From a virus, in the IMG/VR virus record IMGVR_UViG_3300022592_000003, positions 25,243-89,242 of that record: 64,000 nucleotides of DNA; one strand, given 5' to 3'. A program made the translations under genes and the position numbers. Of this stretch, positions 6,952 through 59,246 are shown piece by piece. Every line of letters begins with the position of its first letter. Within the stretch, counting starts at the first letter, position 1. The notes under the pieces were generated by a model. The model was not told the origin of the DNA. It did no database searches and was given only the letters and a program-made list of their open reading frames with translations.

Positions 6952-7267
6952 AGGACAGAAACAATCTCTAAAGCATGAGAAGCGCTTAGAGAAAGTAGCA
7001 GGCGGTAAGCGCAATGCCGCCTCCGGTGCATTTTGGTCTCGTAAGGGGGACGTCAGAAACGATTTATATCTTTTTGAGCATAAGTGGACAGGAAAGAAGT
7101 CTTTTAGTGTACAATCCTCAGTGTTAAAGAAAATAACCACTGAGGCCATCCTAGATAGCCGAGAGCCTGTATTGGCTTTTCATCTAGACGGGGAGGACTA
7201 CGTAATCATACAGGAGACCCACTTTCATGAGCTTACACGAACAGTCAACAGAATCCAAGAAGAGTAA
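6941..7267 (+). CDS. putative PD-(D/E)XK nuclease
   Basis: 108 residues, overlapping recA by 11 bases. Residues about 22-50 read AASGAFWSRKGDVRNDLYLF then EHKWTGKKSFSV: a conserved SG/RKGD region, Asp, and E-x-K on a following strand, the arrangement of PD-(D/E)XK or resolvase-like phage nucleases. The substrate cannot be told from sequence. Position beside recA suggests recombination or repair. The call rests on motif spacing only. Confidence 0.55.
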   Translation: MKSEGQKQSLKHEKRLEKVAGGKRNAASGAFWSRKGDVRNDLYLFEHKWTGKKSFSVQSSVLKKITTEAILDSREPVLAFHLDGEDYVIIQETHFHELTRTVNRIQEE

Positions 7268-7727
7268 AGAATGTACTAAATGTAAAGTCGAGTTTCCTGC
7301 TACAAGAGAGTATTTCTCCCCTGCCAGGCGTGGGAAGTATGGCTTAACCCAGAGATGTAAAACTTGTGCAAATGCTCAGACTAAAGATTGGTATGAAAAT
7401 AAAGATGGTAGGTCATGGCATCTTAAAGACCAAAGCCAACGCAGGGCTGACCTTGCTAATTGGGTGGATACTTTTAAAGATGTTCCTTGTACAGACTGCG
7501 GTATTAACTATCCGCCTTATGTAATGGATTTTGATCACCTCCCTCAATTTGAAAAGTATTTTCCAATAGGGGTGTTAGTAAATAAACGAGTATCTAAGGA
7601 GATACTCTTAGAAGAAATAAAAAAGTGTGAAGTAGTCTGTGCTAATTGCCATAGGGAACGCACTAGGGTAAGGGGCCAATGGTCTGGTATACGGTATACT
7701 AATGCTGTGGGGGGCCATAAAGATTAG
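7227..7727 (+). CDS. HNH-type endonuclease, probably a free-standing homing gene
   Basis: 166 residues. An N-terminal zinc pair (CTKC, CKTC) is followed by the HNH core: CTDCG, MDFDHLP and CEVVCANCHRERT. The core closely resembles the one in the gene at 17312 (FDHL, CEVVCANCHAIRT), so the two are paralogues. Such genes cut DNA and spread into related phages. It interrupts the run of recombination genes, and AGGAGA 10 bases before ATG fixes the start. Confidence 0.8.
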   Translation: MSLHEQSTESKKSKECTKCKVEFPATREYFSPARRGKYGLTQRCKTCANAQTKDWYENKDGRSWHLKDQSQRRADLANWVDTFKDVPCTDCGINYPPYVMDFDHLPQFEKYFPIGVLVNKRVSKEILLEEIKKCEVVCANCHRERTRVRGQWSGIRYTNAVGGHKD

Positions 7728-17311: not shown

Positions 17312-17719
17312 ATGAAGGATACTCAAATGAAGACCTGTAAATCATGCATGGTTACGCTGCCAGAGACTAAGTTTAAACTTAGGTCCTCAACAGGGCGACA
17401 ATCTGGACAAAGACATTCTATGTGTAACAGGTGCCTATACGTTCGGTACACCCGGCCAGAGGCAGAACGAAAAGTAAAAGAAGTGCATGAATACCAGTTG
17501 GAAAAAGGATGTGTTGATTGCGGATATAACAAGCATCCAGCGGCACTAGAGTTTGATCATCTTTCAGGAACTAAAAAACTATTCAATATAGGTGAAAAAA
17601 TGGGGTCTTACAGCCGTACAATACTATGGGAAGAAATAGCAAAGTGTGAAGTAGTGTGTGCTAATTGTCACGCTATTCGTACAGCTACTCGTAGAACAAA
17701 GGTGGAGATAAATGCCTAA
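17312..17719 (+). CDS. HNH-type endonuclease
   Basis: 135 residues. Zinc pair CKSC, CNRC, then HNH core CVDCGYN, LEFDHLSG and CEVVCANCHAIRT, paralogous to the gene at 7227. Placed immediately after a terminator and just before an unrelated gene that it overlaps by 8 bases, as expected for a mobile endonuclease gene. GGAG lies 12 bases upstream of ATG. Confidence 0.8.
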   Translation: MKDTQMKTCKSCMVTLPETKFKLRSSTGRQSGQRHSMCNRCLYVRYTRPEAERKVKEVHEYQLEKGCVDCGYNKHPAALEFDHLSGTKKLFNIGEKMGSYSRTILWEEIAKCEVVCANCHAIRTATRRTKVEINA

Positions 17720-18258
17720 CTCGCATAACAACTGGCAGTATTTAGGTGCCAGCGGGTATGTAGGTGCATACACTACCACCGGTGGTGGTGGAACCCCAGC
17801 AGTACCACGAAGTGGAATGGATTTCCTTCGCATGGGTGTGGGACGTGCACCTCAAGCGGAGTATCCCTGACGGCTACTTAGGAACAATTCGTTCACGTCG
17901 TGACGATAAGGGCAAGCCCTACGCTATCTCAGACACAGTTCTTGATTCGCTAAAGAATCGCCAGAACCAACGTGCCTACCAGCGTGGTGTTCACAAAGGT
18001 GAGCGTATTGATCCAGCTTCGTACATGTGGCCAGAGAATTTAGAACCAGATCGTCGCTTGAAGCCAAGTCTCTACAAAGAAGTAGAAGTAGACGGCTCTC
18101 TTGTTATGATGGGAAAAAGAAATACCCCTAAGATGGCATTGGCACCAGCACCACACCTCGTTAACGACGGTAAAGCTGATGTCTCTGCTAATGTACCGGC
18201 AGAGTTTAATCCACGTACCGGAGCACTCTTTGCCCATTTGAAACCAAGGTGGCAGTAA
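17712..18258 (+). CDS. unknown protein made by probable +1 programmed frameshift
   Basis: Reading from ATG at 17712 (GGTGGAG 5 bases upstream) gives 52 residues ending ...APQAEYP then TGA at 17868. The +1 frame continues DGYLGTIRSRRDDKGKPYA from 17869 to 18258 with no good start of its own. A shift on CCC at 17865 joins them into a 181-residue product. The site GGAG-TAT-CCC-TGA-C copies the layout of the bacterial release factor 2 frameshift signal. Termination would leave a 52-residue peptide. The fold is unknown: the N-terminus is Gly/Thr-rich, the rest basic with short helices. An assembly indel in CCC is the alternative. Confidence 0.72.
17856..17871 (+). promoter_or_regulatory. RF2-like +1 frameshift signal
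   Basis: GCGGAG (17856-17861) directly followed by TAT, CCC, TGA and C. In prfB the order is a Shine-Dalgarno-like AGGGGG, TAT, CTT, TGA, C. Spacing between the ribosome-binding-like bases, shift codon and stop is identical. CCC to CCT re-pairing by tRNA-Pro is possible. Confidence 0.7.
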
Positions 18259-30146: not shown

Positions 30147-30612
30147 TTAGTGCTCCTGTCTCGTAGGTGAGTATTGCTGCTTCATCGCTGAAACATTCTT
30201 CAACGATCTTTGGGTGAACTTCTTCCCGCATTACACGGAAAGAATCTCTAGGCCAGCCTTGATCCATAACCCTAGTAAGTAAATTAGCTAAGGCATAGTC
30301 TGGGTAGGTGGTGTTTGCGTACTTCAGAAGTTGTGCTGCCGCTTCATCCTGCCCTAACTCGTAGCGGAACACTGCTTGGATTGTAATGAATGGGGCTAGA
30401 TCTTCAGACGGTGCCTTGCGACACATATACTCGATAAACTCAAGACTGTCTTCAATACCCCACTTCACTGGAGCACCCATCAACCAGTCCCTAACCTGTA
30501 GGTCAGAGTTAACGCCTAAGATAACCGCCTCTAACTTTTCACCGTCTAAATCAATTCCGGTGTTTAGTGTCTCGGTGATTAACTCACATACTAGCTTTCT
30601 TGTTACTATCAT
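30139..30612 (-). CDS. DUF4192-like protein
   Basis: 157 residues; AGGAGAG before ATG. RDWLMGAPVKWGIEDSLEFI, LAPFITIQAVFRYELGQDEA and YALANLLTRVMDQGWP fit the C-terminal half of DUF4192 proteins, a family of unknown function largely from actinobacteria and their phages. Overlaps the glycosylase gene by 29 bases. Confidence 0.65.
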   Translation of the reverse strand: MIVTRKLVCELITETLNTGIDLDGEKLEAVILGVNSDLQVRDWLMGAPVKWGIEDSLEFIEYMCRKAPSEDLAPFITIQAVFRYELGQDEAAAQLLKYANTTYPDYALANLLTRVMDQGWPRDSFRVMREEVHPKIVEECFSDEAAILTYETGALNA

Positions 30613-31066
30613 TCTTGCTCTCCTTTTTTACGATGGTACGGAATGTCCTACCGGGTGTAGGCCATTTGTATGGCAGGTCAGGACGTACACGAAACCGGTA
30701 CCAAACCGGATCTTTACGTTTGAGGTTAGAACGATGTGACTTGTGGAACTCATCGTTACCCCACCACCATGGTGGATCCCAACCTTGTATATCGTGTGTT
30801 GCATATAGCTCTTGCAGCTGTGCCTGTACGTTATCTTGATAGCCACGTTGTCTCCACTCCATGCACATAGCGTTCGTGTACATGTAGAGATAGCCTTCGT
30901 GACCACGCCACATTACTGCTGCAGGGTGATTAACCCACCCCTTAGTTAGACCTAAGTTAGCCCTCAGAATTTGCAACGCTTCTACACGTTGCTTACCAAG
31001 TCTCTTATTGTCTAAGGATTTTGCTGTTCTTGTTTGGTCTGGCCAAGGCAGGAATGTATTAACCAT
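30584..31066 (-). CDS. pyrimidine-dimer DNA glycosylase-like protein (actinobacterial type)
   Basis: 160 residues. MVNTFLPWPD, SLDNKRLGKQRVEALQIL, NHPAAVMWRGHEGYLYMY and CMEWRQRG match the MSMEG_6728-type family related to T4 endonuclease V, which starts repair of UV dimers by cutting the glycosidic bond. The C-terminal 60 residues are basic and variable. Useful to a phage exposed to light. Start overlaps the preceding stop (TAATG). Confidence 0.75.
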   Translation of the reverse strand: MVNTFLPWPDQTRTAKSLDNKRLGKQRVEALQILRANLGLTKGWVNHPAAVMWRGHEGYLYMYTNAMCMEWRQRGYQDNVQAQLQELYATHDIQGWDPPWWWGNDEFHKSHRSNLKRKDPVWYRFRVRPDLPYKWPTPGRTFRTIVKKESKNDSNKKASM

Positions 31067-42290: not shown

Positions 42291-42797
42291 ATGGCACACC
42301 CATATCAAAACCCAGGTAAAGACCAATATAACGATCGCTATCCAGATTGGTCAAAACATACCAAGACAGTGGTGGTACAACCACCAGTAACGATCCAATC
42401 CCTCTTTCCCCAGTTCAATCGCTGGGCTATTGGATTCGATCCCCTCTTAGAGACCCTAAGCAACATCAGCGCCTCTGCAAAGACAAGTAGCTACCCGCCC
42501 TATAACATCTACAAGGATGAGGACAAATACGTCCTAGAACTGGCTGTAGCAGGCTTTGGCAAGGAAGATATCACTATCTCGGTAAAAGAGCTCCAGTTGA
42601 CCGTAGAAGGCCAATTAGAGGCATCTGAGGACGAACCTATCCATAAGGGAATCGCTACCAGAGACTTCAAGCAGAACTTCGCTCTAGCGGAGTATGTAGT
42701 AGTCAAGGGAGCAGAGATGAAGGATGGCATGCTCCGTATTACCTTGAAGCAGGAATTACCTGAAGAGCTACAACCCAAGATTATCAAAATCAAGTAA
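42291..42797 (+). CDS. hsp20: Hsp20/alpha-crystallin small heat-shock protein
   Basis: 168 residues. YPPYNIYKDEDKYVLELAVA with GFGKEDITISVKELQLTVEG and LRITLKQELPEEL form the alpha-crystallin domain (about residues 64-165). Such chaperones hold unfolding proteins and occur in many aquatic phages, probably helping virion protein folding. It has its own promoter. Confidence 0.88.
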   Translation: MAHPYQNPGKDQYNDRYPDWSKHTKTVVVQPPVTIQSLFPQFNRWAIGFDPLLETLSNISASAKTSSYPPYNIYKDEDKYVLELAVAGFGKEDITISVKELQLTVEGQLEASEDEPIHKGIATRDFKQNFALAEYVVVKGAEMKDGMLRITLKQELPEELQPKIIKIK

Positions 42798-58688: not shown

Positions 58689-59246
58689 ATGGCAGTAAAG
58701 CACGTAAAAACAAAATGTCCGCAAGGGCATAGCTATACAAAAGATAATTCGTACATAGATAAAAACGGTTATCGCCACTGTAGGACTTGTCGTAAAGATA
58801 CGATGAGAATCCGCAGAGAAGATGACGTAAGAGTTGGACGTGGCGTTAATAACGCTTCTAAAACCGAGTGTCCTAAAGGGCACCCGTACGATGAAGAAAA
58901 TACAATTACATATGTAAAGCCTAATGGTAAATCAAAAAGAGCTTGCCGAGAGTGCGCCAGAGCTAATATGGCTACCCAAAACGTTAAGCGTTATGGAATA
59001 ACCAAAGCGGACTTTGAAGCCCTAATAGAAGCACAAGACTCTAAATGTGCTATATGCAAAGGTAAGTTCTGGGATGAGGTCTCCTCTCCCCACATTGATC
59101 ATGACCACACTTGCTGTAATGGGCAAATGCGTTCTTGCGGTAAATGTATAAGAGGACTTCTTTGCAGAAACTGTAACCAGGTTCTTGGCTGTGCCAAGGA
59201 CAATATTGAGGTCTTAAAAGCCGCAATAAAATACCTTAACAACTAA
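58689..59246 (+). CDS. recombination endonuclease VII-like homing gene
   Basis: 185 residues. Two zinc pairs (CPQG ... CRTC, CPKG ... CREC) then the endonuclease VII core RYGITKADFEALIEAQDSKC followed by AICKGKF, HIDHDHTC and GLLCRNCNQVLG. It would cut branched or target DNA. It lies between capsid and the next head gene, where free-standing homing genes often insert. Confidence 0.85.
   Translation: MAVKHVKTKCPQGHSYTKDNSYIDKNGYRHCRTCRKDTMRIRREDDVRVGRGVNNASKTECPKGHPYDEENTITYVKPNGKSKRACRECARANMATQNVKRYGITKADFEALIEAQDSKCAICKGKFWDEVSSPHIDHDHTCCNGQMRSCGKCIRGLLCRNCNQVLGCAKDNIEVLKAAIKYLNN

Follow-up and report, generated by a model that had tools for sequence, protein, structure and literature searches.

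A one-base insertion with a conserved +1 frameshift site, linked to an HNH endonuclease gene in phages: a candidate self-immunity mark

Why would a phage gene carry an extra base in a conserved motif, when most of its relatives do without it and the rest of the protein can then only be reached by ribosomal frameshifting? We considered this question for a gene in IMG/VR virus record IMGVR_UViG_3300022592_000003, of whose 89,242 bases a stretch of 64,000 was analysed (the window). Two reading frames abut in this gene, and skipping one base (T) at CCC-TGA joins them into a product of 181 amino acids. An earlier note on this DNA had proposed a programmed +1 shift there, with a release factor 2 (RF2)-like order of elements (GGAG, TAT, CCC, TGA, C), and its coordinates and site sequence proved right on re-reading of the window. 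Comparative sequence analysis indicates that the +1 frameshift is almost certainly real, and both the frameshifting and its linkage to an upstream HNH endonuclease gene appear well supported. This link, which the earlier note missed, best explains why the site exists. We estimate a probability of roughly 0.6 that the locus is a mobile cassette, in which the HNH enzyme acts on the unmarked AEYPDGYLG motif, while the carrier is spared by the extra base together with the codons that accompany it. The gene and its site comprise the following features.

17712..17870, + strand: zero-frame open reading frame, starting with ATG, 52 amino acids, ending ...APQAEYP, with its TGA stop at 17868-17870.
17858..17861, + strand: GGAG, a Shine-Dalgarno-like element within GCG GAG (GCG at 17856), 3 nucleotides (nt) 5' of the slippery codon.
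17865..17871, + strand: CCC TGA C, that is the slippery Pro codon CCC (17865-17867), the in-frame stop and C; the extra base sits here.
17869..18258, + strand: +1-frame continuation, from GAC (17869-17871) to TAA (18256-18258), 129 codons plus TAA, beginning DGYLGTIRSRRDD.

A query with the downstream half retrieved 70 viral loci, of which nearly all are uninterrupted and begin at a matching start codon, in most cases 52 codons ahead of the junction. The ATG of the window gene, which lies 52 codons before the junction, is matched by this start position, and the 181-amino-acid protein aligns with uninterrupted relatives both before and after the junction. Among these 70 loci only L003 and L005 have the extra base. 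We then performed two pattern scans of IMG/VR in which the inserted base was left free and, in the second scan, the sequence upstream of the Tyr codon as well. Both recovered the same 26 homologous contigs, mostly much more divergent members of the family and all with the same signature; L221 and L222, also matched in the second scan, are unrelated proteins and were rejected as chance matches. After removal of duplicates, the comparison comprised 25 distinct shifted sequences (the window included) from 22 metagenome datasets and 145 distinct unshifted sequences. In a sample drawn blind to the state of the site, using a pattern further downstream, 2 of 80 loci were shifted.

The extra base is at the same codon in all 25 shifted sequences, and the consensus is always GCG GAR TAY CCY TGA C. 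Ala is encoded by GCG, Asp by GAC and the inserted base is T in 25 of 25, with Glu as GAG in 20 and GAA in 5, Tyr as TAT in 22 and TAC in 3, Gly as GGC in 21 of 25, and Pro as CCC in 20, CCT in 5 and CCA or CCG in none. In the 145 homologs without the interruption, the motif is plain coding sequence, where GCG is found in 19, CCA in 98, CCG in 4, GAC in 48, GAT in 97 and GGC in 36. The corresponding enrichment of shifted over unshifted sequences is p=2e-18 for GCG, p=5e-12 for CCY and p=4e-11 for GAC. CCC makes up 43 of 472 Pro codons of the window phage and GCG 66 of its 880 Ala codons, so the site is built of codons that this phage otherwise avoids. The comparison of related phages proposed in the earlier note turned up the same one-base offset and conserved site in 25 distinct sequences. 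The same note had taken relatives with an intact frame as evidence against a programmed shift. Such relatives were literally found, yet they refute nothing, as both alleles coexist and the shifted one has its own signature.

Both frames are constrained. Between the window and L077, the nonsynonymous divergence (dN) is 0.04 and the synonymous divergence (dS) 0.69 upstream of the junction, compared to 0.04 and 1.06 downstream; for L075 and L090 the downstream values are 0.03 and 1.04. Downstream dN of other shifted pairs is as high as 0.13 and always lower than dS, and the dN/dS of about 0.04 in the closest shifted pairs denotes strong purifying selection. Residues A-E-Y-P before and D-G-Y-L-G-T-I-R after the junction are invariant in shifted copies, with 2-5 codons used per residue except for GCG and GAC. 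Since invariant residues are encoded by varied codons across the junction, translation must run through the site, and a separate start of the second frame is for this reason not credible, as had been proposed; the two frames would be read as one protein. Between protein clades, codon choice is shared no more often among shifted copies than among unshifted ones, except at the site (GCG, GAC). Codon agreement confined to the site therefore places the constraint there and not on a long shared tract, and wide sharing of a converted tract between clades was rejected, with codon sharing elsewhere at chance level. The site has the features of the prfB type, namely a Shine-Dalgarno-like element 3 nt upstream, a slippery codon followed by TGA C, and conserved frames on both sides. 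The programmed shift at CCC-TGA-C with its RF2-like element order thus stands, given the conserved signature and the match of relatives on both sides of the junction. The gene product had no match in PHROG or Pfam searches, and its predicted structure is poor (mean predicted local distance difference test score, pLDDT, of 53).

The gene that best explains the presence of the site lies directly upstream.

17312..17719, + strand: HNH endonuclease gene, 130-135 amino acids, starting at ATG 17312 or 17327, whose stop codon lies within an 8-nt overlap with the beginning of the next gene.

Its product matches the PHROG 2255 HNH endonuclease (E=4.4e-31), with no match in Pfam and none among PDB sequences. 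The FDH ... CANCH residues and the paired Cys are invariant in the HNH proteins, with the catalytic-type H/N/H and the zinc Cys all kept; the protein is under purifying selection and its predicted model is confident (pLDDT 89). The gene is directly upstream in 16 of the 25 shifted loci, and a seventeenth, L087, has it in its record. With L094 left out, which ends too soon upstream to be scored, HNH is present in 17 of 24 shifted loci, compared to 0 of the 134 unshifted loci whose upstream sequence is long enough for scoring (Fisher p=1.3e-17, in a test that ignores relatedness). In about 5 of 8 phylogenetically independent shifted/unshifted pairs on supported branches, HNH occurs together with the shift, and in none is the association reversed. 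When the search was started from HNH, the best eight relatives (70-86% identity) were all at shifted loci, and the next had at most 45% identity over full length.

The shifted state is scattered over the family. It changes 13 times on the protein tree (shuffled mean 15.2), at least 8 of them on well-supported branches, and a single origin by descent with the gene was rejected in view of these 13 changes. On DNA near the site there are 11 changes, and none of 500 shuffles was as low, versus 16 changes far downstream. Between clades HNH is about 70% alike compared to about 55% for the gene, while some close pairs show the reverse (HNH 85%, gene 94%); this mismatch fits later horizontal spread of HNH. 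The shifted L085 and the unshifted L214 are collinear except for an HNH insertion of about 400 nt, with an identity of 94-98% in the 200 nt before the insertion, 75-81% over the gene start and site, and 95-99% further down. L082 and L105 are likewise collinear except for an HNH insertion of about 400 nt. In L074, where the site is shifted and HNH is missing, the flank and first codons agree with the unshifted L196; synonymous differences become dense from about 22 codons ahead of the site, against a background that otherwise stays close to L196. In general, when shifted sequences are compared to their nearest unshifted relatives, the synonymous difference amounts to 0.55-0.72 as far as 8 codons after the site and drops to 0.33-0.45 from there on, whereas among unshifted sequences it is flat at 0.31-0.45. 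In clades B and C, none of 1000 label shuffles reached the near-site excess. Divergence tracts such as these would be expected of gene-conversion patches, and the one in the window may be placed as follows.

17805..17917, no strand assigned: putative conversion tract (approximate), from 20 codons before to 16 after the junction, where shifted sequences diverge synonymously from unshifted ones.

The genomes of L079 and L082 are nearly identical, the main difference being a 200-nt patch with 80-83% identity that lies at about +100 to +300 relative to the junction. This suggests that recombination is frequent here, and therefore not every patch is a cassette transfer. The characteristics of a free-standing homing endonuclease were found together at the locus: an HNH sequence, precise presence or absence in collinear genomes, and flanking co-conversion (clades B and C).

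Other nuclease-like genes were observed as well. A second small HNH-like gene (166 amino acids, Cys-rich, with a CANCH motif) lies at 7227-7727 of the window; a 50-nt stretch of it is 86% identical to the HNH gene at 17312-17719, and the cassette HNH may derive from it or be related to it. L074, where the shifted allele occurs without the cassette HNH, has a different HNH-type gene about 900-1260 nt before the junction. At 58689-59246 of the window, directly after the major capsid gene, there is an endonuclease VII-type gene (PF02945) that is likely another mobile nuclease.

We propose the following explanation. The cassette would consist of a free-standing HNH homing-type endonuclease gene and a marked allele of the adjoining gene, the mark being a single additional base in AEYP/DGYLG, the gene's most conserved motif, plus a fixed set of synonymous codons. 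The endonuclease would cut or nick the unmarked motif in other phages during co-infection, and repair from the marked genome would copy the mark, often together with the HNH gene, into the recipient. The insertion would protect the carrier's own copy of the gene by destroying the endonuclease target, and the RF2-like +1 site would keep the gene functional despite the insertion: GGAG would pair with 16S rRNA, UGA-C would terminate slowly, and tRNA-Pro on CCC or CCU would slip one base to +1. Cleavage, resistance and frameshift efficiency are what we infer here. With odds only slightly better than even, the locus represents a selfish endonuclease with a single inserted base as its self-immunity mark; the insertion lies in a highly conserved coding motif and would be tolerated only via the +1 frameshift site that it builds. 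Reversion would then restore the cut site, locking the frameshift while the nuclease is present, and the mark could spread alone as immunity.

The window phage is an actinophage: it has two WhiB genes, and its terminase (51-53%) and major capsid (71-73%) are closest to those of the Streptomyces phages BRock, LuckySocke, Alone3, GiJojo and pSt2308. These phages hold distant homologs of the gene, uninterrupted in the two examined. The host is probably among freshwater actinobacteria such as Candidatus (Ca.) Nanopelagicales; a first genome scan for host genomes with the gene found no relative. In the complete genome of Ca. Planktophila versatilis, from the likely host group, tRNA-Pro(UGG) is the only tRNA-Pro; for the corresponding Escherichia coli tRNA, weak pairing with CCC and ready shifting have been described (PMC4519876). 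A tRNA-Pro(UGG) that has to read CCC and CCU on its own would do so weakly, which makes slippage plausible. The anti-Shine-Dalgarno sequence CACCTCCTTTCT is present in Ca. Planktophila. The window phage also carries a pyrimidine dimer DNA glycosylase gene (30584-31066) and an Hsp20-type gene (42291-42797).

Several points weigh against the cassette explanation. HNH is missing from 7 of 24 shifted loci and was not found elsewhere in their records, which may be fragments; for these loci the explanation has to assume that HNH was lost or that the conversion tract stopped short of it. Taken by itself, the independent-pairs test is of borderline significance (median p 0.06), and the tract test is not significant in clade A, that of the window, with 3 shifted sequences. 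Fold matches of the HNH model to beta-beta-alpha-Me nucleases are weak (best nuclease E 0.04-0.1), with none strong. The synonymous changes alone might confer resistance, in which case the insertion need not be the protective part. Finally, the shift efficiency in an actinobacterial host is uncertain because the prfB motif works poorly in M. smegmatis, at about 6% (PMC12421855).

Among other explanations, an accidental insertion beside an HNH gene with its target elsewhere could have spread with HNH, the frameshift signal having evolved later as a rescue. Such hitchhiking would account for both linkage and tracts, which need co-transfer only. We nevertheless consider it unlikely, as tracts include the site even without HNH (L074), and as in the distant homolog L247 an HNH relative lies beside the same motif, interrupted there in another way, which implicates the motif as such. 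In L247 (814-1902) the HNH relative is directly upstream, the motif reads ...SYPDGYL TGA CCC GGG ACA ATT, and the frame continues unchanged after the in-frame TGA. This is possibly a different insertion at the same motif beside HNH, needing readthrough, and may be an independent recoded and endonuclease-resistant allele. L247 is a single contig, and our searches found no further alleles of its type. The idea that TGA-C shifts are a regular feature of HNH-linked genes was rejected after 72 other HNH loci were scanned, with unconvincing matches except for L247.

A regulatory programmed frameshift that sets the amount of the 181-amino-acid (or 52-amino-acid) product, with HNH as a linked passenger, is rather improbable. 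The recoding signal is clearly selected, and 7 shifted loci retain it without HNH, both of which would fit regulation. However, about 97% of the family lacks the shift, going by the 2 of 80 loci in the state-blind sample, and the shift was gained or lost many times between near-identical proteins, unlike stable regulation. The HNH association of 17/24 versus 0/134 would also be left unexplained. Far less probable still is an RF2-sensing switch, where the host RF2 level would set the product ratio. TGA is decoded by RF2, not RF1, and the element order matches prfB. However, none of 2,658 Actinomycetota genomes has prfB autoregulation (PMC12421855), and in the three freshwater actinobacterial genomes with a full-length prfB match, prfB is uninterrupted and read in one frame. 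The 52-residue product shows no conservation of its own, apart from that of the long protein to which it belongs. The suggestion in the earlier note that the ratio of 52- to 181-residue products tracks host RF2 thus finds no support for an actinophage. Sequencing or assembly error, or a decaying pseudogene, was excluded despite the one-base difference at a C run and the intact relatives, as 25 distinct sequences from 22 datasets have one signature in common, including CCT-T variants without a CCC run, and purifying selection is evident from dS of about 1 with dN of about 0.04 between shifted copies.

The nearest known system to the window locus is mobA and gene 60 of phage T4, whose translational bypass was reportedly treated by Bonocora et al. 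in PNAS in 2011 (doi 10.1073/pnas.1107633108, cited in PMC10236363). There, the HNH endonuclease gene mobA lies beside the interrupted gene 60; the insert is thought to be protective, and recoding rescues the protein (PMC5009743, PMC3014915). Both systems have an HNH homing endonuclease gene upstream, a recoded insertion in the adjoining gene and recoding at UGA. Unlike the 50-nt hop in T4, there is one extra base and a +1 shift here, with no gap of about 50 nt. The bypass is reported for T4 only and not for other T4-related phages, while the arrangement here spans several clades, with 25 distinct sequences; in T4, gene 39/60 is split as well; and T4 mobA is called apparently defective, whereas the HNH gene here is under purifying selection. 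Similar to the T4 free-standing homing endonucleases (Seg, Mob; PMC2988022), the HNH gene lies between conserved genes, with empty sites and flanking conversion tracts, although the marked allele here needs ribosomal frameshifting and HNH is a putative nuclease. The site has in common with bacterial prfB a Shine-Dalgarno-like element, the 3-nt spacer TAT, a slippery codon, TGA C and a +1 shift. It differs from prfB in having CCC or CCT (Pro) instead of CTT, in belonging to an unrelated gene, in not being autoregulatory, and in occurring in phages related to those of a phylum without the prfB frameshift. In the Listeria phages PSA, A118 and A500, tsh has a +1 shift at AAA CCC_UGA (PMC5009743), which is likewise a CCC_UGA shift in a phage gene. 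Unlike tsh, where the shift has another purpose, the stop here comes after codon 52, the rest of a conserved protein is shift-dependent and an endonuclease gene is linked. We found no papers on this case, or on frameshift insertions as endonuclease immunity beyond T4, in a search that most subscription journals were outside of.

Automatic gene finders likely split or truncate such genes. An RF2-like shift site is present in relatives of phages that infect a phylum whose own prfB lost it, and a single tRNA-Pro, UGG, is a plausible reason for an RF2-like site in such phages. Why recoding sites arise is an old question, for which T4 gene 60 is the known example tied to a homing endonuclease and was described as unique to T4. 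The window locus would be a minimal and repeated version: one base, many phages, and both alleles side by side. This would make the origin of a programmed frameshift directly testable.
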